From positions 41,939,697 to 42,003,696 of the forward strand of contig NC_091145.1 of the NCBI RefSeq assembly GCF_041381155.1: a stretch of DNA of 64,000 nt. The letters are read 5' to 3'. Positions 6,959 to 64,000 of the stretch are shown piece after piece. The stretch comes from Argopecten irradians. Lineage: Eukaryota > Mollusca > Bivalvia > Pectinida > Pectinidae. The notes below the pieces were generated by a model that had not been told where the DNA came from, searched no databases, and saw nothing but the letters and a program-made list of their open reading frames with translations. Each line of letters starts with the position of its first letter. Positions within the stretch are counted from its first letter, which is position 1. Position numbers and translations under genes: made by a program.

Positions 6959-7211
6959 TTAATGTTTGAGTTTATATATAGGGTTATGATGATTTTAGAT
7001 TCCTTTACACAATGCTTCATCCAAACCTTGAGAGCTAATTTCTTCACCCAGTATTTACCCAAGGCTTGGTTTGGATGACTCCACTCAGGTAGAAGTTTTA
7101 AACACACCTTCTCTCTTGTATGAAATTATTTGTTACTCTTGAAAGTTTTAGTTTGATCTACGGTGAATTATGGAACTTCTATGTGGTTACGGATTTCTTC
7201 ATTAAGCTCAC

Positions 7212-9107: not shown

Positions 9108-9768
9108 CATTTTCATCATTAAATCCTCTAAGTTTGTTCCGGATAAGCAGTGAGTAGAATGGGCACTCAAGGAATGCACCTTTGACATTGTCACCATATT
9201 ATATATCTCTCATTGTTCAATCTGTTATATTGATGTAGAATGTCTGGTGGTGACTTCTCATTCAGGTCCACGTACCTGCCCTTCTTTGTAAGGTCACAGG
9301 TTCACTTCACACTATATCACATTGCTAATACATTAGGGGTAGATTATGGAGGATGAAATCTTATGTTTTACAATCCAGAAGGGGTTAAATTACTGAGACC
9401 GTGGAGCTCTATTAGATTTAAAGTGTTTTAAAATCACTTTAGAGGTTGATATTAAATAGAAAGCAGTTAATATAAAAAGGGAGTGTCAAACTAGGTGTAC
9501 CTCAAAATAACACACTTTCCTATTAGTAAAGTTTAAACAGGTTGTATTGACATTGATTTCCCGATGTGACATCATGAATAACCTGTCTTATACCTCTCCT
9601 TGTTCACTTATACCTCTCCTTGTTCACAAGTCGGCCCGTGTATTTTAACACTAACTTTTCAAGTTAAATATAAAGGTTCCCAAGGTTTACAAAATAGAAC
9701 AGGTATAGACTGCGCCGTTCGACCTTTATGAGTATGATTACATAGCTGACACGACGTTGTCCTATAAC
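9108..9768. other. Upstream region of the laccase-like gene
   Basis: No coding signal. It contains a small direct duplication, CTTATACCTCTCCTTGTTCA, at about 9589-9626. The plus-strand gene begins downstream, so promoter-proximal elements may lie here, but none is recognisable apart from the TATA-like element that follows. Confidence 0.4.
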
Positions 9769-40794: not shown

Positions 40795-43650
40795 TAAACT
40801 TCATGACTGGAGCCTTATGATTGGAGGTGGTGGGAAACATTATTGGGGTAGAGTCACAGAGGTGATGTAGACAATATTGTACAAGTGGTGACAGTAACAA
40901 AATAATACATGCTTTTAAAGCTGATAGAAACCACAAGTGGTGGTGGATAATTTTATGGGTGGTGCCACAAGTGGTGAAAAGAGATGTAATGATGGATTCC
41001 ATCAACAGCGATGCGAACTGGCAGTGATAAAGGTGGTGGTAGGGAACAATGAGGACAATGTGGTGAGGGGAAGCATGGTAATGAGGGTAACATTGGAATG
41101 AGTGCCACATGTGGTGGGGGACATTATGATGAGTACCACATGTGGTGATTGGAAACAATGATGGATGCCACAAGTGGTGATTGAAAACAATAATTGGTGC
41201 CATAAGTGGTGATTTGAATATAATGATAGGTGGTGGATAAAATTATTGGTGGAGCCACAAGTGGTGAAAAGAGATGTCATGATTGATTCCATCAACGGTG
41301 ATTAGAACTGGCAACGACAAAGGTGGTAGGGAACACTAAGGGCAATGTGGTGAGGGGAAGTATGGTAATGAGGGTAACATTGGAATGAGTGCCACATGTG
41401 GTGGGGGACATTATGATGAGTACCACATATGGTGATTGGAAACAATGATGGATGCCACAAGTGGTGATTGAAAACAATGATGGGTGCCACAAGTAGTGAT
41501 TGAAAATAATTATTTGATGGATGCCACAAGTGGTGACTGGAAATAATAATGATGGATGCCACAAGTGGAGATCGGAAACAATGATTGGTGCCACAAGTGG
41601 AAATTGGAAATGAAATAATGGGTGCCAAAAGCAGTGGTGGATAATATTATGGGTGGTACCACAAGTGGTGATTGAGAGATGTAATAAGGATTCCATCAAC
41701 GGTGATGAGAATTGGTGACAAAGGTGGTAGGGAACACTGAGGGCAATGTGGTTAGGGGAAGTATGGTAATGAGGGTAACAATACAATGATGGGAGTCACA
41801 AGTGGTGATTCGAAACAATGATAGGTGCCACACGTGGTGATTGGAAATATAATGATGGGTGACCCAAGTGGTGATTGGAAACAATATTGGGTGCTCCAAG
41901 TGGTGATTGGAAACAATGATGGGTGCAACATGTGGTGATTGGAAAAATGATGGGTGCCACATATCGTGATTGGTAATATAATGATGGGTGCCACATGTAG
42001 TGATTGGAAACAATATTGGGTGCCACATATCGTGATTGGTAATAAAATGATTGCTGCCACATGTGGTGATTGGAAACAATGATGGGTGCCACATGTGGTG
42101 ATTAGAAACAACGATGGGTGCCACATATCGTGATTGGTAATATAATGATTGGTGCCACATGTAGTGATTGGAAACAATGATGGGTGCCACATGTGGTGAA
42201 TGATGGGCGCCACATGTGGTGATTGGAAACAATATTGGGTGCCACATATCGTGATTGGTAATATAATGATTGGTGCCACATGTGGTGATTGGAAACAATG
42301 ATGGATGCCACATATCGTTATTGGTAATATAATAATGGGTGCCACAAGTGGTGATTGGAAACAATGATGGGTGCCACATGTGGTGAATGGAAACAATGAT
42401 GGATGCCACAAGTGGTGATTGGAAAGAATGATAGATGCCACATGTTGTGATTTGAAACAGTGATGGATCCCACAAGTGGTGATTGGAAACAATGATGGGT
42501 GCCACAAGTGGTGATTGGAAACAATGATGGGTGCCACAAGTGGTGATTGGAAACAATGATGGGTGCCACAAGTGGTGAGGGGAAGCAATAATGGGTGCCA
42601 CAAGTAGTGATTGGAAATAAAATGATGGGTGCCACAAGTGGTAATTGGAAATATGATAATTGCCACACATGGTGATTAAAAACAATGATGAGTGCCACAA
42701 GTGGTGATTGGAAACAATGATGGGTGCCACAAGTGGTTATTGGAAATATAATGTTTTGTGCAACAAGTGGTGATTTGAAACAATGATTGGTACCACAAGT
42801 GGTGATTGGAAACAATGATGGGTGCCACAACTGTTGATTTGAAACAACGATGGGTGCCACAAATGATGATTGGAAACAATAATGGGTGCCACAAGTGGTG
42901 ATAAGCAACAATGATGGTGCCACAAGTGGTGATTGTAAATATAATGATGGATGTCACAAGTGGTGATTGAATACAATGATGAATGCCACAAGTTGTGACT
43001 GGAAATATAATGATAGATGCCACCAGTGCCACAAGTGGTGATTGGAAACAACGATGGGTGCCACAAGTTGTGATAAAAACAATGATGGGTGCCACAAGTG
43101 GTGATTGAAAACAATGATGGGTGCCACAAGTGGTGATTGGAAAGAATGATAGATGCCACATGTTGTGATTTGAATATAATGATAGGTGGTGGATAATATT
43201 ATTGGTGGAGCCACAAGTGGTGAAAAGAGATGTCATGATGTCCATCAACGGCGATAAGAACTGGCAACGACAAAGGTGGTAGGGAACACTGAGGACAATG
43301 TGGTGAGGGGAAGTATGGTAATGAGGGTAACATTGGAATAAGTGCAACATGTGGTGGGGGACATTATGATGAATACCACATGTGGTGATTGAATATGATG
43401 ATAGGTGTCACAAGAGGTGATTTGAAATATAATGATGGGTGCCACATGTGGTGATTATAAACATTGATGGGTGCCACAAGTGGTGATTGGAAATATAATT
43501 GGTGATAGGAAACAATGATGGGTGCCACAAATGGTGATTGTAAACAATGATGGGTGCCACAAGTGGTGATTGGACACAATGATTGGCACCACAAGTGGTG
43601 ATTGGAAACAATGACTGGTGCCACAAATGGTGATTGGAAACAATTATGAG
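40795..43650. repeat. Minisatellite, 31-32-bp unit with higher-order blocks, about 90 units
   Basis: Landmarks are GTGGTGATTGGAAACAATGA and TGGGTGCCACAAGTGG. Longer blocks with CAAAGGTGGTAGGGAACACT and GGGTAACATTGGAATGAGTG recur near 40990-41140, 41300-41440, 41690-41790 and 43250-43390, giving a higher-order structure. All minus-strand frames stay open for long runs (up to 344 residues of HHLWHPSLFPITTCGTHH-like text), which is low-complexity by-product. It lies downstream of the reelin gene's 3' end. Confidence 0.93.
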
Positions 43651-44189: not shown

Positions 44190-44241
44190 TTACTCTCCTC
44201 TCCATTTACTTCGTCTGAATCTCGAAAAGGAATTATGATTT
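44190..44241 (-). CDS. RELN: Reelin last exon (basic C-terminal tail)
   Basis: The acceptor TTTCTTTATCTTCCAG on the minus strand precedes 44241. One nucleotide completes the split codon, then NHNSFSRFRRSKWRGE and TAA. The basic, Arg-rich end parallels the short conserved C-terminal region of vertebrate reelin (ends in several Arg), which matters there for secretion and signalling. Only 16 full codons before the stop, so easily missed by gene prediction. Confidence 0.8.
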
Positions 44242-47200
44242 CTGGAAGATAAAGAAAATATTTGGGATTATAAAATATTGAAAATGCTTTGTTATTACAT
44301 TATACATGTACGTGGTTGTATACTTGAGAAAAATATAACTAATATTAAACAAAATTTTGCATAACTCGAACATGAATTAAAATCTTTCACAAATATCTAT
44401 ATATCGCCATCACGACTTACATAATGATTTCTACAAGATCTATGACCCACTGGTTGTGTCCCTCCCTGTCGTGACTTACATTATGAATTCTACATGATCT
44501 ATGACCCACAAGTTGTGTCCCACCCCGTCATGACTTACGTTATGATTTCTACAAGATCTATGACCCACTGGTTGTGTCCCTCCCCGTCGTGACTTACATT
44601 ATGAATTCTACATTATCTATGACCCACAAGTTGTGTCCCACCCCGTCATGACTTACGTTATGATTTCTACAAGATCTATGACCCACTGGTTGTGTCCCTC
44701 CCCGTCATGACTTACGTTATGATTTCTACAAGATCTATGACCCACTGGTTGTGTCCCTCCCCGTCGTGACTTACGTTATGATTTCTACAAGATCTATGAC
44801 CCACTGGTTGTGTCCCTCCCCGTCATGACTTACGTTATGATTTCTACAAGATCTATGACCCACTGGTTGTGTCCCTCCCCGTCATGACTTACGTTATGAT
44901 TTCTACAAGATCTATGACCCACTGGTTGTGTCCCTCCCCGTCATGACTTACGTTATGATTTCTACAAGATCTATGACCCACTGGTTGTGTCCCTCCCCGT
45001 CGTGACTTACATTATGATTTCTACAAGATCTATGACCCACTGGTCGTGTGTCCCTCCCCGTCGTGACTTACGTTATGATTTCTACAAGATCTATGACCCA
45101 CTGGTTGTGTCCCTCCCCGTCATGACTTACGTTATGATTTCTACAAGATCTATGACCCACTGGTTGTGTCCCTCCCCGTCATGACTTACGTTATGATTTC
45201 TACAAGATCTATGACCACTGGTTGTGTCCCTCCCCGTCATGACTTACTTATGATTTCTACAAGATCTATGACCCACTGGTGTGTCCCTGACTTACTTACA
45301 TTATGATTTCTACAAGATCTATGACCCACTGGTTGTGTCCCTCCCCGTCATGACTTACATTATGATTTCTACAAGATCTATGACCCACTGGTTGTGTCCC
45401 TCCCCGTCATGACTTACGTTATGATTTCTACAAGATCTATGACCCACTGGTTGTGTCCCTCCCTGTGGTGACTTACATAATGATTTCTACAAGATCTATG
45501 ACCCACTGGTTGTGTCCCTCCCCGTCGTGACTTACATAATGATTTCTACAAGATCTATGACCCACTGGTTGTGTCCCTCCCCGTGGTGACTTACATTATG
45601 ATTTCTACAAGATCTATGACCCACTGGTTGTGTCCCTCCCCGTGGTGACTTACATAATGATTTCTACAAGATCTATGACCCACTGGTTGTGTCCCTCCCC
45701 GTCATGACTTACGTTATGATTTCTACAAGATCTATGACCCACTGGTTGTGTCCCTCCCCGTCATGACTTACGTTATGATTTCTACAAGATCTATGACCCA
45801 CTGGTTGTGTCCCTCCCCGTCATGACTTACGTTATGATTTCTACAAGATCTATGACCCACTGGTTGTGTCCCTCCCCGTCATGACTTACGTTATGATTTC
45901 TACATGATCTATGACCCACTGGTTGTGTCCCTCCCCGTCATGACTTACGTTATGATTTCTACATGATCTATGACCCACTGGTTGTGTCCCTCCCCGTCAT
46001 GACTTACGTTATGATTTCTACAAGATCTATGACCCACTGGTTGTGTCCCTCCCCGTCATGACTTACGTTATGATTTCTACAAGATCTATGACCCACTGGT
46101 TGTGTCCCTCCCCCCGTCATGACTTACGTTATGATTTCTACAAGATCTATGACCCACTGGTTGTGTCCCTCCCCGTCATGACTTACGTTATGATTTCTAC
46201 AAGATCTATGACCCACTGGTTGTGTCCCTCCCCGTCATGACTTACGTTATGATTTCTACAAGATCTATGACCCACTGGTTGTGTCCCTCCCCGTCATGAC
46301 TTACGTTATGATTTCTACAAGATCTATGACCCACTGGTTGTGTCCCTCCCCGTCATGACTTACGTTATGATTTCTAAATGATCTATGACCCACTGGTCGT
46401 GTCCCTCCCCGTCATGACTTACGTTATGATTTCTACAAGATCTATGACCCACTGGTCGTGTCCCTCCCCGTCATGACTTACGTTATGATTTCTACAAGAT
46501 CTATGACCCACTGGTCGTGTCCCTCCCCGTCATGACTTACGTTATGATTTCTACAAGATCTATGACCCACTGGTCGTGTCCCTCCCCGTCATGACTTACG
46601 TTATGATTTCTACAAGATCTATGACCCACTGGTCGTGTCCCTCCCCGTCATGACTTACGTTATGATTTCTACAAGATCTATGACCCACTGGTTGTGTCCC
46701 TCCCCGTCATGACTTACGTTATGATTTCTACAAGATCTATGACCCACTGGTCGTGTCCCTCCCCGTCATGACTTACGTTATGATTTCTAAAAGATCTATG
46801 ACCCACTGGTTGTGTCCCTCCCCGTCATGACTTACGTTATGATTTCTACAAGATCTATGACCCACTGGTTGTGTCCCTCCCTGTGGTGACTTACATAATG
46901 ATTTCTACAAGATCTATGACCCACTGGTCGTGTCCCTCCCTGTCGTGACTTACGTTATGATTTCTACAAGATCTATGACCCACTGGTTGTGTCCCTCCCC
47001 GTCATGACTTACGTTATGATTTCTACAAGATCTATGACCCACTGGTCGTGTCTCTCCCCGTCATGACTTACGTTATGATTTCTAAAAGATCTATGACCCA
47101 CTGGTTGTGTCCCTCCCCGTCATGACTTACGTTATGATTTCTACAAGATCTATGACCCACTGGTTGTGTCCCTCCCCGTCATGACTTACGTTATGATTTC

Positions 47201-50200
47201 TACAAGATCTATGACCCACTGGTTGTGTCCCTCCCCGTCATGACTTACGTTATGATTTCTACAAGATCTATGACCCACTGGTTGTGTCCCTCCCCGTCAT
47301 GACTTACGTTATGATTTCTACAAGATCTATGACCCACTGGTTGTGTCCCTCCCCGTCATGACTTAGTTATGATTTCTACAAGATCTATGACCCACTGGTT
47401 GTGTCCCTCCCCGTCATGACTTACGTTATGATTTCTACAAGATCTATGACCCACTGGTTGTGTCCCTCCCCGTCATGACTTACGTTATGATTTCTACAAG
47501 ATCTATGACCCACTGGTTGTGTCCCTCCCCGTCATGACTTACGTTATGATTTCTACAAGATCTATGACCCACTGGTTGTGTCCCTCCCCGTCATGACTTA
47601 CGTTATGATTTCTACAAGATCTATGACCCACTGGTTGTGTCCCTCCCCGTCATGACTTACGTTATGATTTCTACAAGATCTATGACCCACTGGTTGTGTG
47701 TCCCTCCCCGTCATGACTTACGTTATGATTTCTACAAGATCTATGACCCACTGGTTGTGTCCCTCCCCGTCATGACTTACGTTATGATTTCTTCATGATC
47801 TATGACCCACTGGGTGTGTCCCTCCCCGTCATGACTTACGTTATGATTTCTACAAGATCTATGACCCACTGGTTGTGTCCCTCCCCGTCATGACTTACGT
47901 TATGATTTCTACAATGATCTATGACCCACTGGTTGTGTCCCTCCCCGTCATGACTTACGTTATGATTTCTACAAGATCTATGACCCACTGGTTGTGTCCC
48001 TCCCCGTCATGACTTACGTTATGATTTCTACAAGATCTATGACCCACTGGTGTGTCCTCCCGTCATGACTTAGTTATGATTTCTACAAGATCTATGACCC
48101 ACTGGTGTGTCCCTCCCCGTCATGACTTACGTTATGATTTCTACAAGATCTATGACCTACTGGTTGTGTCCCTCCCCGTCGTGACTTACGTTATGATTTC
48201 TACAAGATCTATGACCCACTGGTTGTGTCCCTCCCCGTCATGACTTACGTTATGATTTCTACAAGATCTATGACCCACTGGTTGTGTCCCTCCCCGTCAT
48301 GACTTACGTTATGATTTCTACAAGATCTATGACCCACTGGTTGTGTCCCTCCCCGTCATGACTTACGTTATGATTTCTACAAGATCTATGACCCACTGGT
48401 TGTGTCCCTCCCCGTCATGACTTACGTTATGATTTCTACAAGATCTATGACCCACTGGTTGTGTCCCTCCCCGTCATGACTTACGTTATGATTTCTACAA
48501 GATCTATGACCCACTGGTTGTGTCCCTCCCCGTCATGACTTACGTTATGATTTCTACAAGATCTATGACCCACTGGTTGTGTCCCTCCCCGTCATGACTT
48601 ACGTTATGATTTCTACAAGATCTATGACCCACTGGTTGTGTCCCTCCCCGTCATGACTTACGTTATGATTTCTACAAGATCTATGACCCACTGGTTGTGT
48701 CCCTCCCCGTCATGACTTACGTTATGATTTCTACAAGATCTATGACCCACTGGTTGTGTCCCTCCCCGTCATGACTTACGTTATGATTTCTACAAGATCT
48801 ATGACCCACTGGTTGTGTCCCTCCCCGTCATGACTTACGTTATGATTTCTACAAGATCTATGACCCACTGGTTGTGTCCCTCCCCGTCATGACTTACGTT
48901 ATGATTTCTACAAGATCTATGACCCACTGGTTGTGTCCCTCCCCGTCATGACTTACGTTATGATTTCTACATGATCTATGACCCACTGGTTGTGTCCCTC
49001 CCCGTCATGACTTACGTTATGATTTCTACAAGATCTATGACCCACTGGTTGTGTCCCTCCCCGTCATGACTTACGTTATGATTTCTACAAGATCTATGAC
49101 CCACTGGTTGTGTCCCTCCCCGTCATGACTTACGTTATGATTTCTACAAGATCTATGACCCACTGGTCGTGTCCCTCCCCGTCATGACTTACGTTATGAT
49201 TTCTACAAGATCTATGACCCACTGGTTGTGTCCCTCCCCGTCATGACTTACGTTATGATTTCTACAAGATCTATGACCCACTGGTTGTGTCCCTCCCCGT
49301 CATGACTTACGTTATGATTTCTACAAGATCTATGACCCACTGGTCGTGTCCCTCCCCGTCATGACTTACGTTATGATTTCTACAAGATCTATGACCCACT
49401 GGTTGTGTCCCTCCCCGTCATGACTTACGTTATGATTTCTACAAGATCTATGACCCACTGGTGTGTCCCTCCCCGTCATGACTTACGTTATGATTTCTAC
49501 AAGATCTATGACCCACTGGTTGTGTCCCTCCCCGTCATGACTTACGTTATGATTTCTACAAGATCTATGACCCACTGGTTGTGTCCCTCCCCGTCATGAC
49601 TTACGTTATGATTTCTACAAGATCTATGACCCACTGGTTGTGTCCCTCCCGTTGACTTACTATGATTTCTAAAGATCTGACCCACTGGTGTGTCCCTCCC
49701 CGTCATGACTTACATAATGATTTCTACAAGATCTATGACCCACTGGTTGTGTCCCTCCCCGTCATGACTTACGTTATGATTTCTACAAGATCTATGACCC
49801 ACTGTGTCCGTGTGACTTACTATGATTTCTACCCGTCATGACTTACGTGACTTATGATTTCTACAAGATCTATGACCCACTGGTTGTGTCCCTCCCCGTC
49901 ATGACTTACGTTATGATTTCTACAAGATCTATGACCCACTGGTTGTGTCCCTCCCCGTCGTAACTTACGTTATGATTTCTACAAGATCTATGACCCACTG
50001 GTCGTGTCCCTCCCCGTCATGACTTACGTTATGATTTCTACAAGATCTATGACCCACTGGTGTGTCCCTCCCCGTCATGACTTACGTTATGATTTCTACA
50101 AGATCTATGACCCACTGGTTGTGTCCCTCCCCGTCATGACTTACGTTATGATTTCTACAAGATCTATGACCCACTGGTTGTGTCCCTCCCCGTCATGACT

Positions 50201-53200
50201 TACGTTATGATTTCTACAAGATCTATGACCCACTGGTTGTGTCCCTCCCCGTCATGACTTACGTTATGATTTCTACAAGATCTATGACCCACTGGTTGTG
50301 TCCCTCCCCGTCATGACTTACGTTATGATTTCTACAAGATCTATGACCCACTGGTTGTGTCCCTCCCCGTCATGACTTACGTTATGATTTCTACAAGATC
50401 TATGACCCACTGGTTGTGTCCCTCCCCGTCATGACTTACGTTATGATTTCTACAAGATCTATGACCCACTGGTTGTGTCCCTCCCCGTCATGACTTACGT
50501 TATGATTTCTACAAGATCTATGACCCACTGGTTGTGTCCCTCCCCGTCATGACTTACGTTATGATTTCTACAAGATCTATGACCCACTGGTTGTGTCCCT
50601 CCCCGTCATGACTTACGTTATGATTTCTACAAGATCTATGACCCACTGGTTGTGTCCCTCCCCGTCATGACTTACGTTATGATTTCTACAAGATCTATGA
50701 CCACTGTGTGTCCCTCCCTGGTATGATTTCTGTCTATGACCTCCCTCCCCGTCATGACTTACGTTATGATTTCTACAAGATCTATGACCCACTGGTTGTG
50801 TCCCTCCCCGTCATGACTTACGTTATGATGATTTCTACAAGATCTATGACCCACTGGTCGTGTCCCTCCCCGTCATGACTTACGTTATGATTTCTACAAG
50901 ATCTATGACCCACTGGTTGTGTCCCTCCCCGTCATGACTTACGTTATGATTTCTACAAGATCTATGACCCACTGGTTGTGTCCCTCCCCGTCATGACTTA
51001 CGTTATGATTTCTACAAGATCTATGACCCACTGGTTGTGTCCCTCCCCGTCATGACTTACGTTATGATTTCTACAAGATCTATGACCCACTGGTTGTGTC
51101 CCTCCCCGTCATGACTTCGTTATGATTCTTATGATTTCTAATGATCTATGACCCACTGGTTGTGTCCCCCCGTCATGACTTACGTTATGATTTCTACAAG
51201 ATCTATGACCCACTGGTTGTGTCCCTCCCCGTCATGACTTACGTTATGATTTCTACAAGATCTATGACCCACTGGTTGTGTCCCTCCCCGTCATGACTTA
51301 CGTTATGATTTCTACAAGATCTATGACCCACTGGTTGTGTCCCTCCCCGTCATGACTTACGTTATGATTTCTACAAGATCTATGACCCACTGGTCGTGTC
51401 CCTCCCCGTCATGACTTACGTTATGATTTCTACATGATCTATGACCCACTGGTTGTGTCCCTCCCCGTCATGACTTACGTTATGATTTCTACAAGATCTA
51501 TGACCCACTGGTTGTGTCCCTCCCCGTCATGACTTACGTTATGATTTCTACAAGATCTATGACCCACTGGTCGTGTCCCTCCCCGTCATGACTTACGTTA
51601 TGATTTCTACAAGATCTATGACCCACTGGTTGTGTCCCTCCCCGTCATGACTTACGTTATGATTTCTACAAGATCTATGACCCACTGGTTGTGTCCCTCC
51701 CCGTCATGACTTACGTTATGATTTCTACAAGATCTATGACCCACTGGTTGTGTCCCTCCCCGTCATGACTTACGTTATGATTTCTACAAGATCTATGACC
51801 CACTGGTTGTGTCCCTCCCCGTCGTGACTTACGTTATGATTTCTACAAGATCTATGACCCACTGGTTGTGTCCCTCCCCGTCGTGACTTACGTTATGATT
51901 TCTACAAGATCTATGACCCACTGGTTGTGTCCCTCCCCGTCATGACTTACGTTATGATTTCTACAAGATCTATGACCCACTGGTCGTGTCCCCTCCCCGT
52001 CGTGACTTACGTTATGATTTCTACAAGATCTATGACCCACTGGTTGTGTCCCTCCCCGTCATGACTTACGTTATGATTTCTACAAGATCTATGACCCACT
52101 GGTTGTGTCCCTCCCCGTCGTGACTTACGTTATGATTTCTACAAGATCTATGACCCACTGGTTGTGTCCCTCCCCGTCATGACTTACGTTATGATTTCTA
52201 CAAGATCTATGACCCACTGGTTGTGTCCCTCCCCGTCATGACTTACGTTATGATTTCTACAAGATCTATGACCCACTGGTTGTGTCCCTCCCCGTCATGA
52301 CTTACGTTATGATTTCTACAAGATCTATGACCCACTGGTTGTGTCCCTCCCCGTCATGACTTACGTTATGATTTCTACAAGATCTATGACCCACTGGTTG
52401 TGTCCCTCCCCGTCATGACTTACGTTATGATTTCTACAAGATCTATGACCCACTGGTTGTGTCCCTCCCCGTCATGACTTACGTTATGATTTCTACAAGA
52501 TCTATGACCCACTTGTCGTGTCCCTCCCCGTCGTGACTTACATTATGATTTCTACATGATCTATGGCCCACTGGTCGTGTCCCTTCCCGTCATGGACTGG
52601 CTGCCACCATCTGAATTGTACACCATTAGCTCTTGCGTCCCCTGGTAAGTTGTATGCTGCCCTTTTGGGATTAAGGTAATCTTCTGGATCATGCCTAGCT
52701 AGAAGTTTCCAGTGTATTCCCTGAAAAAATGCATGTTCATTTCAAATCATGCTCAATGTGACATCCTGTAAATTAGTTTTGCAATCGACATGACTATTGG
52801 TTATGTTTTTTTATTTTATCATATCAAGAAAGTCAGACATGCATGTAGCAAGTTAGACTTACAGAATAGTTAACTGATATAAAGGAGTGATGACCTACCT
52901 TATCTACAGTGTACTGTAATAACACCCCACGATACTGAACACCTGTACCAGTCCGTACATTACACGTCGACGTTTGTGCCCGACATCCTATCTGTAGCAC
53001 AAACATTATTTTGCTGAAAAAGAAAATTTATTAAAAGTTATTGCAGATTTCATGTAACCCTGCAGAAAAATAGAGGAAAAATTGCTATTTCCAATCAAAT
53101 TATTGAATTAGAAGTTATGTAAAGAGAGGTTACGTGATAATGATGATTTATTTGGTTTTGATTGTAACAGATGCATACTTCAACAAGAGGCCAATGGCCT

Positions 53201-56200
53201 GGTAGCGCGATGGTCCAGTTCATAAATGTCCAATGATAGGTTTTGCCTGATTTTCTTGATTTACACTTATATGCACTGTTTGAACTACATGTATTCATTA
53301 ATTCGGACAATTCAAATGATGACTGGTATTTCTACAATTATGGTATTAAAACAATCATACCAATTCTTTTAAGATAGCTGATGTTACTTATCAAATGTAA
53401 AATAGATTGACAGTTTTATAAAAACAAAAAGTTGACTTGTACAGAATTATTTTTTTCTGAGCAGGATTTTAGTGTGAGCGTATGCAGAAGCAGCATCTTT
53501 ATAGTGTGAATAGTGTTTGGACCAATTTAAATAGAATCATCTTAACTATAAATGAGAACATTTAATAAAAATTCGGACATTTAACAATGCCGTTAATTCA
53601 AACTTATCAGAATATTGCAATATGATAAAAAATAATTGGGTCAATTTTTTCCTGCAGTGATTCCTTGTCGGTATCACACATGTACTACTATATATATTTT
53701 ACAAGGATACCTGCTGGAGGAGGGCATAATTCATTATAAGTGACAGAAAAATTCAAAGATATTTGGCTATCCTGGTTATAAGAGGTAAGCTGAATTAGCT
53801 TTAATATGTTGAAATTACGTAATAACTTATCTTATATCACATTTTCTTCAACAAAATATAAATTTCACAATTAAGGTAGTAATTTAATTTAATGCCCAAG
53901 TTATATTGGCTGAATCTCAGCACAACGGAATGTGTACTACGGGTCAGCAAATTGACAATGGCAGCTACAGGCGAGCCTTTCCCAGGGCCTTGATAACAAA
54001 ATACATTAATTAACTTGCAACCATTGTTTTTCCCTTTAACCATTAATAACTAATATATTTAATTCCCCAAAATAGAGTTTATGTCTGTTTGTCGCCAAAT
54101 TTTATCAGTTCCGTCCTTATCTATAACTACATGTCTCTGCAAAATTTCATTTCTGTTAATGAAATATAACTTGAGATATCCTGTTCATAAGGTGATTTCC
54201 AAAACCAGTGGTCATGCTATAAGCAACTATGGAGCTATATGCTCCATTGTGCTAAAAACTAGCTTTAAAGTAGCAATATAGACCAATGATTTTCCACTTA
54301 TTACAAAATACACAAAATCATTTGATAGATTACAAGTCAAGTTATCTTTAAGATTGTTTTGATTTTACATCATTATGAATACTATCTGGTAAATGTAAGA
54401 TATCATGATGATAGTGTACCTGGCTTTTCTTAGATCCATTTCCACTGTAACCATTTGTCGTAAGCCACAGTCATTGAAGTAGAGTGTTTTACCATGAGCG
54501 TACGGCAGCAGGGCACCACATCCGAACCCTATTCCCCCTCCAGTAATGGTGTCCCAGTAAAACTTAAACACCCCACCTTCAAATGAATCCGACATTTTCC
54601 GTAGTAGGTGTCTCGTTATTTTCTCACATGATAATCCTAAAATAAACATTTAAGATATGAAACAAAATCACTGGTCATTTATGGTTACGGTTCATTTTCC
54701 TTAACAGGCAGATATATTTTGATAAAGTTTCTTGGAGTAATAGCCCAGAATAGAAAGGAAACTGTAAATTGAACATTTTGCCTAAGTTTCCATGGTAACA
54801 CAATAAATATCAAAAATGGAAGTTTATCGAAAGACACAGCTTGGGCACTAGCTTGACACATACAGAAATATCATGGAGCCCAGTTTGATTTTGGAGTTAT
54901 AGTCTGGAAATGATGAACGGATCCTATCTCAATGACCCTGCATGTATTCTCCACAAACGTATATATCATTTACCTGTGTAACCTTGGTGACAGTGACAGC
55001 TACCAGACAGACACGCCCCCCTGCCACTACACATGCCCGGACACTTCTCCCCGACATATACATCATCCAGGGCCCACGAAGAAGCGGATGAATTGGTGGC
55101 TTCCTGTATCCATCGGAATCTGGTCACACTGGAAAGAAGCACAACCTAATCATACTTAGTGTTTCTTGAAATTTCATTGTTTGTTGAAGCTCTAGAAAAA
55201 CAAGAGGCTCCAATAGGAGTTTTTCTATGCCAGTTTCTGTGGCCATGTTGGGTGTCTGTTCCAGTAATATCAAAGTCTCCACCTTGTATTATACCAGTAT
55301 TTAATCAATCCTAAAGATTGAAGCTTAAAAAATAGTATAGGTAAACCATAACTGTCCCACCATTTTACAATATGATAATCATAACGGTTGTGCTAAGATA
55401 TTTTGAAACTGAAAGTGAATACTGTACTTTATTTCGGTGTTTTGTGATCACTTCTGTTCACCAGTTACCTTGAGTAGACAGTGTCAGGGAGGTCGATGGT
55501 GACCCAGGTCCACGAGGGGTTGCCCTCGGGTGAATATTCACTAGCAGAGTGGTAGTGGCTAGGCCGACAGTCAGTCTGCATACCGTTAAGGTCAGGTAAA
55601 CACAAAGGCTGGACATACTCCCAGCGGTCAGTGGCTGGATTCTTGTTATACATCAGTTTGACAGGAGAGTTAGAGGCACAGTGGTCTGGCTGACCATTAC
55701 AACCCACAACTATCTGGAAAGACAACAAACAAACTGAATATCTACTACAAACAACAGATGCTTATTACAAAAACTTGATTTTTTAATCTATCATTTCAAC
55801 TGGGTGATTTGAGAAACAACGTTCCTTATGAAAATTAAACAGATTATAAACAAGCTGTTTCTTTAATATAGGTCAAATCTCAAAATATAGGTCACTATTA
55901 TCTACATTTTTCCCCTTGAACTCGCTAGTCTACCTTTTTACTTTGTGACCCAAATATAAATTTTCAGTATCAAGTAATGTATATGTTAAAATATAGGTCA
56001 CATAATCCTTAGCTTACCCTAAACTGTAACATGTAGTTGTGTTGGACAATTATTTGTTTAGAGGTGAAGCTCCGTGTGCCTTTTCCTTCGTCCCAGGCTA
56101 CAGCATAACCATTAGTGGTACACACATGTTCACGTATTACACCGCGAGGGGTAAACTCCCAGGGTGCATCACTCTGGATATCTTCAGCCTCTGTATCATC

Positions 56201-59200
56201 AAATGACAACTGCATCTCACTAGGGTTGATCTCGGTACCACCTACAAAAACAAGTTTGTGCAGTCAAATCTGTTAGACTCAATGTGACTCAATCCTGACG
56301 TTAATTTAAACCTTGTCCAAATATAAAAATTGTAATCTCCCACTGGGGCCCCACTGTATATAGTACATACAAATATATATATCGTCTACCTCCTTCTGGG
56401 AACCCCAATGTATATACATAACTATATAGACATCGTCTATCTCCCACTGGGGGTTCCATTGTATATACATACCTATAAAGACATCGTCTATCTCCCACTA
56501 GGGCCCCACTGTATATACATACCTATATAGACGTCGTCTATCTCCCTTTAGGGGCCCCACTGTATATACATACCTATATCGACGTCGTCTATCTCCTTCT
56601 GGGAGCCCCACTGTATATACATTCCTATATAGACGTCATCTATCTCCCTCTAGGGGGCCCCAATGTATATACATACCTATATAGATGTCGTCTATCTCCC
56701 ACTAGGGCCCCACTGTATATACATACCTATATAGATATCGTCTATCTCCCACTAGGGCCCCACTGTATATACATAACTATATAGATGTTTTCTATCTCCC
56801 ACTTGGACCCCATTGTATATAGATGTCATCTATCTCCCTCTAGGGGGCCCCACTGTATAAACATACCTATATAGACGTCGTCTATCTCCCTCTAGTGGGC
56901 CCAACTGTATATACATACTTATATAGACGTCGTCTACCTCCCTCTGGGGGCCCAACTGTATATACATACCTATATAGTTGTCGTCTACCTCCCACTAGGG
57001 GCCCCACTGCATATATATACCTATATAGACGTCGTCTACCTCCCTCTGGAGCCCTACTGTATATATATACCTATAAAGACGTTGTCTATCTCCCACTAGG
57101 CCCCACTGTATATACATACCTATATAGATGTCATCTATCTCCCACTGGGGGCCCCACTGTGTGTATCCTTCAGATAATGGCTGCCACCATCGGACTTTGG
57201 TGCTGTCAGTTCTGGCTCCTTGAGGCAGTAGAATGTAGTCCTTCTTTATCTCCTGGTAACTGGCGTAGTCTAGTATGTGGAGGGTTTCCCAGTAAATACC
57301 TACACACATGTCAGAACAATGGGTATTACAACAGAAACTCTAGTATGTGGAGGGTTTCCCAGTAAATACCTACACACATGTCAGAACAATGGGTATTACA
57401 ACAGAAACTCTAGTATGTGGAGGGTTTCCCAGTAAATACCTACACACATGTCAGAACAATGGGTATTACAACAGAAACTCTAGTATGTGGAGGGTTTCCC
57501 AGTACATACCTACACACATGTCAGAACAATGGGTATTACAACAGAAACTCTAGTATGTGGAGGGTTTCCTAGTAAATACCTACACAAATATCAGAACAAT
57601 GGGTATTACAACAGAAACTCTAGTATGTGTAGGGTTTCCCAGTACATACCTACACACATGTCAGAACAATGGGTATTACAACAGAAACTCTAGTATGTGT
57701 AGGGTTTCCCAGTACATACCTACACACATGTCAGAACAATGGGTATTACAACAGAAACTCTAGTATGTGGAGGGTTTCCCAGTAAATACCTACACACATG
57801 TCAGAACAATGGGTATTACAACAGAAACTCTAGTATGTGGAGGGTTTCCCAGTACATACCTACACACATGTCAGAACAATGGGTATTACAACAGAAACTC
57901 TAGTATGTGGAGGGTTTCCCAGTACATACCTACACAAATATCAGAACAATGGGTATTACAACAGAAACTCTAGTATGTGGAGGGTTTCCTTAGTAAATAC
58001 CTACACAAATATCAGAACAATGGGTATTACAACAGAAACTCTAGTATGTGTAGGGTTTCCCAGTACATACCTACACACATGTCAGAACAATGGGTATTAC
58101 AACAGAAACTCTAGTATGTGTAGGGTTTCCCAGTACATACCTACACAAATATCAGAACAATGGGTATTACAACAGAAACTCTAGTATGTGGAGGGTTTCC
58201 TAGTAATACCTACACAAATATCAGAACAATGGGTATTACAACAGAAACTCTAGTATGTGGAGGGTTTCCCAGTAATACCTACACACATGTCAGAACAATG
58301 GGTATTACAACAGAAACTCTAGTATGTGGAGGGTTTCCCAGTAAATACCTACACAAATTCAGAACAATGGGTATTACAACAGAAACTCTAGTATGTGGAG
58401 GGTTTCCCAGTAAATACCTACACACATGTCAGAACAATGTGTATTACAACATAAACTCTAGTATGTTGAGGGTTTCCCAGTAAATACCTACACAAATGCC
58501 AGAACAATGGGTATTACAACAGAAACTCTAGTATGTTGAGGGTTTCCTAGTAAATACCTACACACATGTCAGAACAATGTGTATTACAACAGAAACTCTA
58601 GTATGTGTAGGGTTTCCCAGTACATACCTACACACATGTCAGAACAATGGGTATTACAACAGAAACTCTAGTATGTGTAGGGTTTCCCAGTACATACCTA
58701 CACAAATATCAGAACAATGGGTATTACAACAGAAACTCTAGTATGTGGAGGGTTTCCTAGTAAATACCTACACACATGTCAGAACAATGGGTATTACAAC
58801 AGAAACTCTAGTATGTGGAGGGTTTCCCAGTACATACCTACAAACATGTCAGAACAATGGGTATTACAACAGAAACTCTAGTATGTGGAGGGTTTCCTAG
58901 TAAATACCTACACACAATGTCAGAACAATGGGTATTACAACAGAAACTCTAGTATGTGGAGGGTTTCCCAGTACATACCTACAAACATGTCAGAACAATG
59001 GGTATTACAACAGAAACTCTAGTATGTGGAGGGTTTCCCAGTACATACCTACACAAATATCAGAACAATGGGTATTACAACAGAAACTCTAGTATGTGGA
59101 GGGTTTCCTAGTAAATACCTACACACATGTCAGAACAATGGGTATTACAACAGAAACTCTAGTATGTGGAGGGTTTCCCAGTACATACCTACACACATGT

Positions 59201-62200
59201 CAGAACAATGGGTATTACAACAGAAACTCTAGTATGTGGAGGGTTTCCTAGTAAATACCTACACAAATATCAGAACAATGGGTATTACAACAGAAACTCT
59301 AGTATGTGGAGGGTTTCCAGTAATACCTACACACATGTCAGAACAATGGGTATTACAACAGAAACTCTAGTATGTGGAGGGTTTCCAGTAATACCTACAC
59401 AACATGTCAGAACAATGGGTATTACAACAGAAACTCTAGTATGTGGAGGGTTTCCTAGTAAATACCTACACAAATATCAGAACAATGGGTATTACAACAG
59501 AAACTCTAGTATGTGGAGGGTTTCCCAGTACATACCTACACACATGTCAGAACAATGGGTATTACAACAGAAACTCTAGTATGTGGAGGGTTTCCCAGTA
59601 CATACCTACACACATGTCAGAACAATGGGTATTACAACAGAAACTCTAGTATGTGGAGGGTTTCCCAGTAAATACCTACACAAATGTCAGAACAATGGGT
59701 ATTACAACAGAAACTCTAGTATGTGGAGGGTTTCCTAGTAAATATCTACACACAAATATCAGAACAATGGGTATTACAACAGAAACTCTAGTATGTGGAG
59801 GGTTTCCCAGTACATACCTACACACATGTCAGAACAATGGGTATTACAACAGAAACTCTAGTATGTGGAGGGTTTCCCAGTAAATACCTACACACATGTC
59901 AGAACAATGTGTATTACAACAGAAACTCTAGTATGTGGAGGGTTTCCCAGTACATACCTACACACATGTCAGAACAATGGGTATTACAACAGAAACTCTA
60001 GTATGTGGAGGGTTTCCCAGTAAATACCTACACACAAATATCAGAACAATGGGTATTACAACAGAAACTCTAGTATGTGGAGGGTTTCCCAGTACATACC
60101 TACACACATGTCAGAACAATGGGTATTACAACAGAAACTCTAGTATGTGGAGGGTTTCCCAGTAAATACCTACACACATGTCAGAACAATGTGTATTACA
60201 ACAGAAACTCTAGTATGTGGAGGGTTTCCCAGTACATACCTACACACATGTCAGAACAATGGGTATTACAACAGAAACTCTAGTATGTGGAGGGTTTCCC
60301 AGTAAATACCTACACACAAATATCAGAACAATGGGTATTACAACAGAAACTCTAGTATGTGGAGGGTTTCCCAGTACATACCTACACACATGTCAGAACA
60401 ATGGGTATTACAACAGAAACTCTAGTATGTGGAGGGTTTCCCAGTACATACCTACACACATGTCAGAACAATGTGTATTACAACAGAAACTCTAGTATGT
60501 GGAGGGTTTCCCAGTACATACCTACACAAATATCAGAACAATGTGTATTACAACAGAAACTCTAGTATGTGGAGGGTTTCCCAGTACATACCTACACAAA
60601 TATCAGAACAATGGGTATTACAACAGAAACTCTAGTATGTTGAGGGTTTCCTAGTAAATACCTACACACATGTCAGAACAATGGGTATTACAACAGAAAC
60701 TCTAGTATGTGGAGGGTTTCCCAGTAAATACCTACACAAATATCAGAACAATGGGTATTACAACAGAAACTCTAGTATGTGGAGGGTTTCCCAGTACATA
60801 CTTACACAAATATCTTCTATTAAGTAAATTTTCAAATATTATAAATAATTTAATTGTGAAATTTATTATGTTTATTTATTAGTTGGGCAAACTTAAAAAA
60901 AAAACAGTCTAAAAGTGAGTTTAGGACCTACTTGAAAAAAACATACTCTGGCAAAATTCCAGACGAGTTGATTTTGTTTGACTCACCGTTATCTGTGGAG
61001 TACTGGAGTATAACACTGTGTCGTGAGGAGGACGGAGGGAAACATCCTGGTCCTGGGCCAGCTCCACCAATCACAGCATAGTATTGTATAAACCTAACAA
61101 TATACAAATGTATACGGCACCAGTGCTATTATTTATTATAATAAATAAACAAATTATCTTCTATGGACAGTGGAATCTTGTTATTACTTGAACTCACAAA
61201 TTAGAGTACTCAAACAATCTGTTTTATTGGAAAATTTTTGTTGGTCCCAACAATAATCCTAGTACATTTTGTATGTTAAACACAAAGTTCTTGGTTAACT
61301 TATTTTAAGGTGGTCCTGCAGGCTTTCAGTAAAACATGTTTCCTTCATCTTAGAAACAATTAAAAATCTTTACAAGAAATACAAGAGGCCCAGAGGGCCT
61401 GTATCACTCACCTGATATTTTATTACCAAATAGTGTTCTGAATACAGGTTCATTGTTTCTTTTCTGAAGGAATTTAAATATTTACCTATAATTATCCTAA
61501 TGGATCCCTTCCCCCAAGGATAATCCTGGCCAAATCTGATTTCATTCCATGCAGAACTCTATGACTAGTAGCGATTTCAACCTCTATTTCCGCTATTGGG
61601 CCCCACCCCTCCTGCCCCCAGAGGGCCAGAGCCAATTTTTTTTTTAAAATCTGTTCCCCTTCCCTCAAGGATGTTTCTGGCCAAATGTGGTGACAATTCA
61701 TGTAGAACTTTATGAGTAGTAGCGATTTAAAGGCTTTACCTATATTTCCCCTCTTGGGCTCCTTTCCTCCAGCTCCTGGTGGGTCAGCGCCATTTATACA
61801 AACTCTGTCCCACTTCCCCAAGGATGTTTCTTGCCAAATCTGGTTGCAATCCATGTAAAACTCTATGACTAGTAGCGATTTAAAGGAAATGTTGACGGAC
61901 GGACGATGGACGCCGCACCATGACATAAGATCACCAGCCATTAGGGACAGGTGCGCTTAATATGATCAATATTTACTTGACTTGCCTGGTCTATCTACAA
62001 GACCTATCTTTACTTGACTTACCTGGTCTATCTACCTGACCTATATTTACTTGACTTGCCTGGTCTATCTACCTGACCTATATTTACTTGACTTACCTTG
62101 TCTATCTACCTAACCTATCTTTACTTGACTTACCTTGTCTATCTATCTGACCTATCTTTACTTGACTTGCCTGGTCTATCTACAAGACCTATCTTTACTT

Positions 62201-62827
62201 GACTTGCCTGGTCTATCTACCTGACCTATATTTACTTGACTTGCCTGGTCTATCTACCTGACCTATATTTACTTGACTTACCTTGTCTATCTACCTGACC
62301 AATATTTACTTGACTTACCTGGTCTATCTACCTGACCTATCTTTACTTGACTTACCTGGTCTATCTACCTAACCTATCTTTACTTGACTTACCTTGTCTA
62401 TCTATCTGACCTATCTTTACTTGACTTACCTTGTCTATCTACCTGAACTATATTTACTTGACTTACCTTGTCTATCTACCTGACCTATCTTTACTTGACT
62501 TACCTGGTCTATCTACCTGACCTATCTTTACTTGACTTACCTTGTCTATCTACCTGACCTATCTTTACTTGACTTACCTGTTCTATCTATCTGACCTATC
62601 TTTACTTGACTTACCTGGTCTATCTATCTGACGTATCTTTACTTGACTTACCTGGCATTACGAAGGTCAAGGTTGCCTGTCACAAGTTGTCTGTTACCTG
62701 GTCCTGACATCACCATGGCTGCGTCTTCCACTAAACCATGACATCCAGTACCAACATGGCCACCCTGGACTAGAGACCACTTAGTTTTATCTACACCCAG
62801 TCCTTCAAAATTATCCTTCAAGTATGC
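44190..62827 (-). CDS. RELN: Reelin, 3' part (repeats 7-8 and C-terminal tail), 5' end off window
   Basis: Ten minus-strand exons: 62652-62827, 60987-61093, 57120-57299, 56018-56241, 55469-55713, 54974-55128, 54420-54636, 52899-53013, 52542-52720 and 44190-44241. They total 1650 nt, 549 residues plus stop, with all phases matching. Reelin is a secreted glycoprotein of eight repeats, each two BNR-like subrepeats around an EGF module. In vertebrates it signals through VLDLR/ApoER2. Seen here: LKDNFEG...GGHVGTGCHG, YWETL, VRWWQPL...[110 protein letters not shown], and a basic tail. Order and spacing match repeats 7-8 of vertebrate reelin. Receptor-binding repeats would lie beyond 64000. The organism's use of reelin is not shown. 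Confidence 0.95.
44407..52541 (-). repeat. Donor-derived minisatellite F, 59-bp unit, about 138 copies
   Basis: On the minus strand each unit reads as the last 47 nt of reelin exon 52542-52720 plus the first 12 nt of the intron. Landmarks are GGGACACAACCAGTGGGTCA, TAGATCTTGTAGAAATCATA and AC|GTAAGTCATGAC. The genuine exon end is GGGACACGACCAGTGGGCCA...GTAGAAATCATAAT|GTAAGTCACGAC. Nearly every unit therefore contains an intact GTAAGT 5' splice site. The array fills nearly the whole 8.3-kb last intron. Edge units are diverged and the core is homogeneous. Local damage is seen near 45240-45300, 49650-49690, 49800-49855, 50700-50760 and 51115-51170. Confidence 0.96.
52542..52720 (-). CDS. RELN: Reelin exon (repeat 8, end of second subrepeat)
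   Basis: Acceptor TTTTTTCAG, phase 0 in, phase 2 out at ATAAT|GTAAGT. It encodes GIHWKLLARHDPEDYLNPKR, then AAYNLPGDARANGVQFRWWQ and [19 protein letters not shown], the signature end of reelin repeat 8. Its 3' 47 nt seed array F. Confidence 0.94.
52899..53013 (-). CDS. RELN: Reelin exon (repeat 8)
   Basis: 115 nt after acceptor CTTTTTCAG, donor GATAAG|GTAGGT. It encodes KIMFVLQIGCRAQTSTCNV...GVLLQYTVDK, matching the KIMFVLQIG...VLLQYS block of reelin. It enters in phase 2 and leaves in phase 0. Confidence 0.93.
53014..54419 (-). other. Reelin intron without an array
   Basis: 1.4 kb of AT-rich intron. No tandem repeat, unlike several neighbouring introns, and no other feature is seen. Confidence 0.6.
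54420..54636 (-). CDS. RELN: Reelin exon (repeat 8, first subrepeat end/second start)
   Basis: 217 nt, acceptor TTTATTTTAG, donor GCCAG|GTACAC. It encodes LSCEKITRHLLRKMSDSFEG, then [35 protein letters not shown] and LRQMVTVEMDLRKA. The first codons finish the EGF module begun in the previous exon. Confidence 0.95.
54974..55128 (-). CDS. RELN: Reelin exon (end of BNR subrepeat plus EGF module)
   Basis: 155 nt, acceptor TTCTTTCCAG, donor CACAG|GTAAAT. It encodes [40 protein letters not shown] and [12 protein letters not shown]: the RFRW-x-Q/WALDD end of a subrepeat, then an EGF module with its Cys spacing. Confidence 0.95.
55469..55713 (-). CDS. RELN: Reelin exon (repeat 7, second subrepeat)
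   Basis: 245 nt, phase 0 in, phase 2 out. It encodes IVVGCNGQPDHCASNSPVKL, MYNKNPATDRWEYVQPLCLP and later WVTIDLPDTVYS. The VGC...V-x-L-x-Y...CLP...LPD-x-V-x-S frame follows vertebrate reelin closely. Confidence 0.95.
56018..56241 (-). CDS. RELN: Reelin exon (linker to second subrepeat of repeat 7)
   Basis: 224 nt, acceptor TTTTTGTAG, donor TTTAGG|GTAAGC. It encodes [20 protein letters not shown], then WEFTPRGVIREHVCTTNGYA and SKQIIVQHNYMLQFR. The GG/A-EINPS block at the repeat junction is shared with vertebrate reelin. Confidence 0.94.
56335..57119 (-). repeat. Donor-derived minisatellite E, about 50-bp unit, about 15 copies
   Basis: On the minus strand each unit resembles the last about 40 nt of exon 57120-57299 with its donor: CAGTGGGGCCCC, GGGAGATAGACGACGTCTAT and ATAG|GTATGTATATA. 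The true junction is GACATCTATATAG|GTATGT. Many copies carry CTAG in place of CCCAG, giving in-frame TAG codons. It fills practically the whole intron between exons 57120 and 56241. Unit length varies (48-56 bp). Confidence 0.92.
57120..57299 (-). CDS. RELN: Reelin exon (repeat 7, first subrepeat), flanked by two junction arrays
   Basis: 180 nt, acceptor CATGTGTGTAG, donor ATATAG|GTATGT, phase 1 in and out. It encodes IYWETLHILDYASYQEIKKD, YILLPQGARTDSTKVRWWQP and [20 protein letters not shown]. The first 30 nt with the acceptor are the template of array D, and the last 42 nt with the donor are the template of array E. Confidence 0.95.
57300..60815 (-). repeat. Acceptor-derived minisatellite D, 70-bp unit, about 50 copies
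   Basis: On the minus strand each unit contains TTCTGACATGTGTGTAG|GTATTTACTGGGAAACCCTC then CACATACTAG. That is the 3' splice site and first 30 nt of exon 57120-57299 joined to about 40 nt of intron. Variants replace GTATTTACT by GTATGTACT and CATGTGTGTAG by ATATTTGTGTAG. A decoy acceptor would read IYWETLHIL, EFLL and then a stop (TAA) within the same unit. Plus-strand frames of 68-137 residues in this array are shadows. Confidence 0.96.
60987..61093 (-). CDS. RELN: Reelin exon (repeat 7, first subrepeat)
   Basis: 107 nt, acceptor TATATTGTTAG, donor ATAACG|GTGAGT, phase 2 in, phase 1 out. It encodes FIQYYAVIGGAGPGPGCFPP, then SSSRHSVILQYSTDN. The FIQ-x-Y...ILQYSTDNG block is typical of reelin subrepeats. 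Confidence 0.93.
61380..61960. repeat. Dispersed repeat (CAAGAGGCCCAGAGGGCCT type) in reelin intron
   Basis: It begins ACAAGAGGCCCAGAGGGCCT and ends near GACGGACGGACGATGGACGC. Inside are three similar modules (about 61500, 61660, 61820) with GGCCAAATCTGRTTKCAWTC and CTATGACTAGTAGCGATTT. This start and tail are familiar from bivalve interspersed repeats (general knowledge). The minus-strand 149-residue frame is a shadow. Confidence 0.75.
61975..62651 (-). repeat. Donor-derived minisatellite C, 37-bp unit, about 18 copies
   Basis: On the minus strand the unit reads ACCAG|GTAAGTCAAGTAAA and then GATAGGTCAGGTAGATAG. It repeats the donor of exon 62652-62827 (GCCAG|GTAAGTCAAG) with four exonic bases. 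Almost every copy keeps GTAAGT. It abuts the exon directly. Confidence 0.93.
62652..62827 (-). CDS. RELN: Reelin exon (repeat 7 start), flanked by two junction arrays
   Basis: 176 nt, acceptor AATGTTTTAG, donor AATGCCAG|GTAAGT, phase 0 in, phase 2 out. It encodes AYLKDNFEGLGVDKTKWSLV, then QGGHVGTGCHGLVEDAAMVM and SGPGNRQLVTGNLDLRNA. It opens a BNR-like subrepeat just after an EGF module whose exon lies off the window. Confidence 0.94.
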
Positions 62828-63132
62828 CTAAAACATTTAAATTATCCTTCAAGTAAGCCTAAAACACCTGAAACGTTTAAATTATCCTTCAAGTAAGCCT
62901 GAAACATTAAAATTATCATTCAAGAACGTCTAAAACATTCAAATGCTCCTTCAGGTACGCCTGAAACATTAAAATTATCATTCAAGAACGTCTAAAACAT
63001 TCAAATGCTCCTTCAGGTACGCCTGAAACATTAAAATTATCATTCAAGAACGTCTAAAACATTCAAATGCTCCTTCAGGTACGCCTGAGACATTAAAATC
63101 ATTCTTCAAGTACGCCTGAAACATTTAGATTA
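62828..63132 (-). repeat. Acceptor-derived minisatellite B, 31-bp unit, about 10 copies
   Basis: On the minus strand units read ...AATGTTTYAG|GCRTACYTGAAGGA, repeating the acceptor and the first 14-20 nt (codons for AYLKDN) of exon 62652-62827. Two subtypes alternate: TTTTAG|ACGTTCTTGAATGA and TTTCAG|GCGTACCTGAAGGA. Together they form a 62-bp higher-order unit in the middle of the array. Confidence 0.9.
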
Positions 63133-64000
63133 TCATTACAGGGTTGACAGATGATAGGTAATTACAGTCAGTACTTACAGGGTTGACAGATGATAGGTAA
63201 CTACAGTCAGTACTTACAGGGTTGACAGATGATAGGTGACTACAGTCAGTACTTACAGGGTTGACAGATGATAGGTGACTACAGTCAGTACTTACAGGGT
63301 TGACAGATGATAGGTGACTACAGTCAGTACTTACAGGGTTGACAGATGATAGGTGACTACAGTCAGTACTTACAGGGTTGACAGATGATAGGTGACTACA
63401 GTCAGTACTTACAGGGTTGACAGATGATAGGTGACTACAGTCAGTACTTACATGGTTGACAGATGATAGGTGACTACAGTCAGTACTTACAGGGTTGACA
63501 GATGATAGGTAACTACAGTCAGTACTTACAGGGTTGACAGATGATAGGTGACTACAGTCAGTACTTACAGGGTTGACAGATGATAGGTGACTACAGTCAG
63601 TACTTACAGGGTTGACAGATGATAGGTAACTACAGTCAGTACTTACAGGGTTGACAGATGATAGGTGACTACAGTCAGTACTTACAGGGTTGACAGATGA
63701 TAGGTGACTACAGTCAGTACTTACAGGGTTGACAGATGATAGGTGACTACAGTCAGTACTTACAGGGTTGACAGATGATAGGTGACTACAGTCAGTACTT
63801 ACAGGGTTGACAGATGATAGGTGACTACAGTCAGTACTTACAGGGTTGACAGATGATAGGTGACTACAGTCAGTACTTACAGGGTTGACAGATGATAGGT
63901 GACTACAGTCAGTACTTACAGGGTTGACAGATGATAGGTGACTACAGTCAGTACTTACAGGGTTGACAGATGATAGGTGACTACAGTCAGTACTTACAGG
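63133..64000 (-). repeat. Donor-derived minisatellite A, 39-bp unit, at least 22 copies, runs off window
   Basis: On the minus strand the unit reads TGACTGTAGTCACCTATCAT, CTGTCAACCCT|GTAAGTAC. In phase 0 the exonic half codes DCSHLSSVNP, which continues into AYLKDNFEG of the next exon just as the last EGF Cys and linker do in vertebrate reelin. So the unit is the end of the unseen upstream reelin exon plus its donor. The array abuts array B without unique sequence between. Confidence 0.93.

Follow-up and report, generated by a model that had tools for sequence, protein, structure and literature searches.

Minisatellite arrays built from exon edges in a scallop reelin gene: an unusually extensive case of the 'mirage' kind

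Introduction

In amphioxus, minisatellite-like units lying across an exon-intron boundary, at either edge of an exon and with the splice sites included, are described as "mirages"; according to the available text of the two sources (PMC3087553, PMC3902484), they occur in the genes for Adh, troponin C, globins (BflGb6 and BflGb9) and PGBD5, the second source adding PGBD5 and citing troponin C. The units of the Adh3 mirage are 10–72 bp long, the BflGb6 and PGBD5 mirages comprise 2–7 copies, and the normal mRNA is apparently undisturbed. A related process is Rogers-type intron gain, in which AGGT is duplicated in tandem, and 24-bp exonic repeats in fission yeast belong to it (PMC4974935, available text); there, too, exonic sequence with splice signals is tandemly duplicated and the mRNA remains unchanged. 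Tandem arrays within introns as such are also on record from a mollusc, the abalone (TSSK1-like gene, intron 3, 27-bp unit; PMC6905558), and from earthworms (PMC12783039); in the available text of both reports the arrays have no reported exon edge in the unit. Among the matches listed from the openly licensed literature there was no mirage outside the cephalochordates.

The reelin gene of the scallop Argopecten irradians is a real and unusually extensive case of this known kind. A sequence-only reading of the locus had held that no gene of such an arrangement was described, a view that the amphioxus mirages already contradict (PMC3087553, PMC3902484, as far as their available text goes); what is new here is the phylum, the scale and the involvement of both edges of one exon. 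The host is a bivalve mollusc instead of a cephalochordate, the arrays reach 139 copies and 8 kb, and, unlike in amphioxus, six of them are spread over five of the ten introns (one of these five extending beyond the window), where they affect the two edges of one exon (e3, and e1 if array C is counted) as well as the two ends of one intron. They differ from the AGGT-type gain in that the scallop introns seem to have pre-existed and that each array duplicates one splice site.

The reelin exons and their transcript

The window, that is, the whole stretch of DNA analysed, comprises 64,000 nt. Its minus strand encodes, between 44 and 64 kb, the last ten exons of scallop reelin, which together extend over about 18.6 kb of genome. 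Exon edges were placed by eye and by reelin homology and then confirmed with the transcript-derived protein P0142; the assignments below rest on homology and P0142 identity, except where other evidence is named.

62652–62827, minus strand: reelin exon e1
60987–61093, minus strand: reelin exon e2
57120–57299, minus strand: reelin exon e3, between arrays D and E, both built from its edges
56018–56241, minus strand: reelin exon e4
55469–55713, minus strand: reelin exon e5
54974–55128, minus strand: reelin exon e6, EGF (Pfam, homology and P0142 identity)
54420–54636, minus strand: reelin exon e7
52899–53013, minus strand: reelin exon e8
52542–52720, minus strand: reelin exon e9
44190–44241, minus strand: reelin exon e10, with the basic C-terminal tail and the stop codon (P0142 identity; the tail matches the Mizuhopecten reelin P0143)

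Conceptual splicing of the ten exons yields a sequence of 549 residues with matches to PDB reelin entries (best E 1.7e-106) and to the Pfam reelin sub-repeat B. The last 549 residues of P0142, one cluster representative, are identical to this splice at 549 of 549 positions. P0142 is a protein of 3468 residues from an 11,096-nt contig, apparently of the same species; its source label "lgn" presumably stands for the Logan assemblies of public reads. The reelins of Mizuhopecten yessoensis and Ylistrum balloti match at 87% and 84%, respectively. Because the last ten exons alone cover about 18.6 kb, the 11,096-nt contig must be derived from spliced RNA. The assembled transcript, as represented by this one cluster representative, thus shows the outermost splice junctions in use; minor isoforms may exist beside it.

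The arrays and their units

All six arrays proposed from the sequence alone were recovered by TRF, with units of 39, 31, 37, 70, 51 and 59 bp for A to F, and with units this different the arrays indeed look independent of each other. Array F is reported by TRF as two rows (44410–50718 and 50742–52594).

63136–64000, minus strand: array A, 39-bp unit, donor-type, 22 copies in the window, its exon lying outside (TRF, unit copies, P0142)
62807–63134, minus strand: array B, 31-bp unit, acceptor-type, 21-nt overlap with e1 at 62807–62827 (TRF, exon-edge match)
61972–62655, minus strand: array C, 37-bp unit, donor-type, overlap with e1 of only 4 nt at 62652–62655 (TRF, junction-spanning score)
57269–60808, minus strand: array D, 70-bp unit, acceptor-type, 31-nt overlap with e3 at 57269–57299 (TRF, exon-only match)
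56335–57160, minus strand: array E, 51-bp unit, donor-type, 41-nt overlap with e3 at 57120–57160 (TRF, exon-only match)
44410–52594, minus strand: array F, 59-bp unit, donor-type, 53-nt overlap with e9 at 52542–52594 (TRF, exon-only match)

Both kinds of exon edge are therefore duplicated, donors in A, C, E and F and acceptors in B and D. The arrays account for 14,278 of the 18,161 intronic bases (the first intron lying partly in the window). Copies were counted by wrap-around alignment, leaving out those with at least 40% of the unit missing, and full copies including the exon's own number 51 in D, 16 in E and 139 in F. Array-free sequence amounts to 881, 171, 93 and 165 nt in introns C, D, E and F; within the window, the intron between the exon of array A and e1 consists of A, a short remnant (estimated at 17 nt; 1 nt by TRF) and B. 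The intronic bases kept in the donor-type units number 6 in A, 33 in C, 10 in E and 7 in F.

Junction-spanning queries from 19 exon edges were compared with each exon's own intron and with 20 mononucleotide shuffles per edge. At five of the 19 edges the score lies far above the shuffle maximum, namely at the e1 acceptor (array B, 31.5 vs. 11.5), the e1 donor (C, 22 vs. 10.5), the e3 acceptor (D, 51 vs. 13), the e3 donor (E, 48.5 vs. 12) and the e9 donor (F, 54 vs. 13). The e10 acceptor is marginal (14 vs. 12.5), and at the remaining 13 edges no junction-spanning score in the exon's own intron exceeded the shuffle maximum. When the exon bases alone were compared with their own intron (15 shuffles), matches of 31 nt at the start of e3 (D, score 31 vs. 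11.5), 40 nt at its end (E, 34.5 vs. 9.5) and 52 nt at the end of e9 (F, 44.5 vs. 11.5) were obtained; the start of e1 (B), an edge without shuffle control, matches 20 nt in the upstream intron with a score of 17.5. Array C failed in this comparison (10.0 vs. 10.5), CCAG plus the donor being all that it shares with its exon.

The exon of array A lies beyond the window, and its unit was assigned through the transcript. In phase with e1, the unit has 33 nt read as exonic (TDCSHLSSVNP) followed by GTAAGT. P0142 reads ADCSHLVSVNP directly before the AYLKDNFEG of e1 (9 of 11 residues shared with the unit), and array A is therefore donor-type; M. yessoensis has TDCSHLYSVNP followed by TYLKDNFEG at this place. 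The proposal that the repeated units contain an exon edge with its splice site hence stands by direct homology for B, D, E and F and through P0142 for A; for C, with its four exonic nucleotides, it is weak. By-eye comparison with other scallops (P0143, P0144) indicates that the exonic bases of the units code for a stretch of reelin that is conserved there, which argues that the exons gave rise to the arrays and not the reverse.

Other features of the window

Minisatellites elsewhere in the window had been said to bear no relation to splice junctions. This holds for the one array checked, a 62-bp array at 14249–16753 which ends 48 nt short of the acceptor (around 16802) of a laccase (multicopper oxidase) gene and does not straddle it. 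The laccase is 86% identical to that of Mizuhopecten yessoensis and 82% to that of Ylistrum balloti (best named matches); together with the reelin matches to these two species, this places the window in a scallop. One of its exons contains an exact 28-bp tandem duplication (17062–17119), with which the reading frame is maintained only by skipping a 28-nt GT-AG stretch, and which is absent from the transcript-derived protein P0022 (99% identical); a nascent intron, an allele and an assembly error are the candidate interpretations. A 45-bp array at 7211–9108 (97% matches) has long open frames on the minus strand with a 15-residue repeat (NSLLDRIRRENLVNQ) and may or may not be coding. Also on the minus strand are LINE-like remains (4009–5660), with matches to an endonuclease and, just under the Pfam cut-off, to a reverse transcriptase, and a Laminin G-like open frame (25484–26188), likewise under the Pfam cut-off. 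The region 40939–43648 consists of 32-bp arrays and includes a 287-bp block in tandem double (40939–41510).

Decoy splice sites

As had been noticed from the sequence, the arrays are full of decoy splice sites; the dinucleotides are intact in 237 of 250 decoys, 180 of 192 donors and 57 of 58 acceptors. GT is kept in 22 of 22 decoys in A (in the window, the exon's own copy being outside), in 13 of 17 in C (the other four having GC), in 11 of 15 in E and in 134 of 138 in F; AG is kept in 49 of 50 in D and in all eight in B. Intron F contains 136 GTAAGT, the exon's own included. In three arrays the splice dinucleotides deviate less often from the consensus than the other columns do, with mismatch rates of 0.000 in A (vs. 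0.009 in exonic and 0.024 in intronic columns), 0.000 in B (0.139 and 0.102) and 0.010 in D (0.034 and 0.037). In C, E and F, by contrast, they exceed the other intronic columns (0.118 vs. 0.032, 0.167 vs. 0.033 and 0.018 vs. 0.009); because these arrays keep the dinucleotides less well than their surroundings, there is no consistent constraint on them.

The use of decoys would be costly. For 214 intact decoys placed at their real positions (13 in C, 11 in E, 133 in F, 49 in D, 8 in B), splicing at 213 would miss the normal C-terminus through a stop or a frameshift. The exception is a decoy of array E (+99 nt) which would lead to an in-frame insert of 33 residues, the first stop of this array lying at 122 nt, past the first two decoys; P0142 does not have the insert. 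No decoy use was seen in the assembled transcript (P0142, one cluster representative).

Origin of the arrays

The arrays are probably best understood as mirages, that is, as junction duplications which could persist since their outermost site kept its function, and which then expanded. A short tandem duplication would by chance have taken in an exon edge with its splice site; it would have been tolerated as the outermost copy of that site still defined the same exon, and later slippage or unequal exchange may have expanded and homogenised the repeats into the intron, leaving arrays that would be nearly neutral for splicing. Donor-type units never keep fewer than six intronic bases, the number that leaves the first donor intact; a tolerance filter predicts just this, and it was counted in favour of the tolerance reading. 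Other observations sit less well with it. Decoys with the same core should compete with the true site, and tolerance leaves the success of the outermost one without explanation. A mirage would have homogenised interior copies, with the boundary copies excluded; here the exon-side copy deviates from the consensus more than the median decoy in F (5 differences vs. 0) and not in D (0 vs. 2), with E (3 vs. 5), C (2 vs. 2) and B (2 vs. 4) alongside, which was counted against this explanation. Array C, with four exonic bases, is its weak point. Further, the share of junction-straddling arrays is high even on a short-intron null (see below), so that passive tolerance may explain only part of the pattern.

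Of the alternatives, mis-assembly can practically be dismissed: tandem arrays are often mis-assembled and the copy numbers may be wrong, but point changes and indels distinguish the copies along the arrays, and the units of B, D, E and F continue real exon sequence. An origin of the introns from the arrays, by Rogers-type duplication of AGGT in tandem, is extremely improbable and was rejected on the intron positions. It would account for AG followed by GT at the e3 junctions and for the e10 acceptor region (44232–44250), which shares 17 of 19 bases with an array F unit; the corresponding score of 14 against the full array was reached by none of 300 query shuffles and by one of 500 random window pieces. 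However, e10 starts with NHN in two other scallops as well, so that this likeness may be due to chance. The intron of array C shares residue and phase with the array-free e7/e8 intron of a paralogous repeat, and that of D shares the residue of the e8/e9 intron with a 1-nt offset (the E intron falls at the unaligned end of the comparison). Since its position is common to the paralogous repeat, the conclusion that array C, at least, arose within an intron already present is well supported. At the site of intron F, reelin isoforms of the lizard Podarcis show a difference of about two residues, as they would at an exon boundary, which suggests that such a boundary exists there in vertebrates too; also, the arrays end before the other splice site, by the array-free lengths given above. 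Probably, then, the arrays are later than the other introns too and did not make them. A function of the arrays in splicing or RNA processing, as decoy sites, through U1 titration or by protection from premature polyadenylation, is very unlikely. The well-kept dinucleotides, their low mismatch rates in A, B and D and the abundance of GTAAGT in intron F would fit it; yet homogenisation alone can keep decoy dinucleotides, those of C, E and F are kept worse than other intronic columns, and the assembled transcript is normal. The polyadenylation idea found no backing, as AATAAA/ATTAAA counts do not follow the arrays (0, 3, 3, 0 and 0 in the array introns, i.e., the part of i0 and introns C, D, E and F; 2, 2, 0, 6 and 1 in the array-free i4–i8).

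The alternative of most weight, although doubtful, is a junction-directed mutational process, for instance one tied to transcription or splicing intermediates, by which this lineage would duplicate splice junctions in preference to other sites. The six arrays differ in their units and each of them sits at a junction, and the duplicated segment ends directly after GTAAGT(C) in A and F. If arrays of the observed sizes are placed at random, ignoring exon homology, C, D, E and F would all abut an exon with a probability of about 7e-9. A short-intron null strips the arrays, keeps the intronic part of one unit, and places random unit-length duplications. The stripped introns measure 34 (A/B), 914 (C), 210 (D), 103 (E) and 172 nt (F), and because four of these five introns are short, random duplications would often straddle a junction. 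The straddling chances for A to F are 1.00, 0.91, 0.06, 0.46, 0.60 and 0.46, and their per-intron product, 0.0064, owes its low value mostly to C, the least convincing array. Pooled over all ten introns, the figure is 1.7e-5 for the six arrays, a value which ignores a possible confinement of duplications to some introns, and 1.4e-4 for the product over the five arrays without C; the choice of the gene after the fact, for its pattern, affects both nulls. The recurrent junction-duplication mechanism proposed from the sequence is possible but not established by these figures, and the junction bias is suggestive rather than settled. It also speaks against a directed process that survival of the first donor needs six intronic bases anyway, and that the 62-bp array, at least, lies close to an acceptor elsewhere in the window without straddling it. 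Microhomology at the founding breakpoints, judged by eye, amounts to about 4 bp at most (F, B), which is neither distinctive nor decisive.

Implications

With intron F, where 134 of the 138 decoy copies have GT, nature provides a test of how splice sites are chosen. By a simple rule that reportedly goes back to Reed and Maniatis in 1986, the splice site nearest across the intron wins; such a rule would predict the use of decoys, and the assembled transcript instead uses the outermost site. With the scallop gene, mirages are carried from cephalochordates to a mollusc, at a much larger scale, and introns in general may grow in this way. It is conceivable, if unlikely, that in scallops some process coupled to transcription or splicing makes splice junctions especially prone to tandem duplication, with whole introns rebuilt from copies of their own ends; were this so, the convergent appearance of mirages in amphioxus would indicate that introns can generally grow by this route, and the gene would offer a natural assay of how the spliceosome chooses one among more than 100 near-identical donors.
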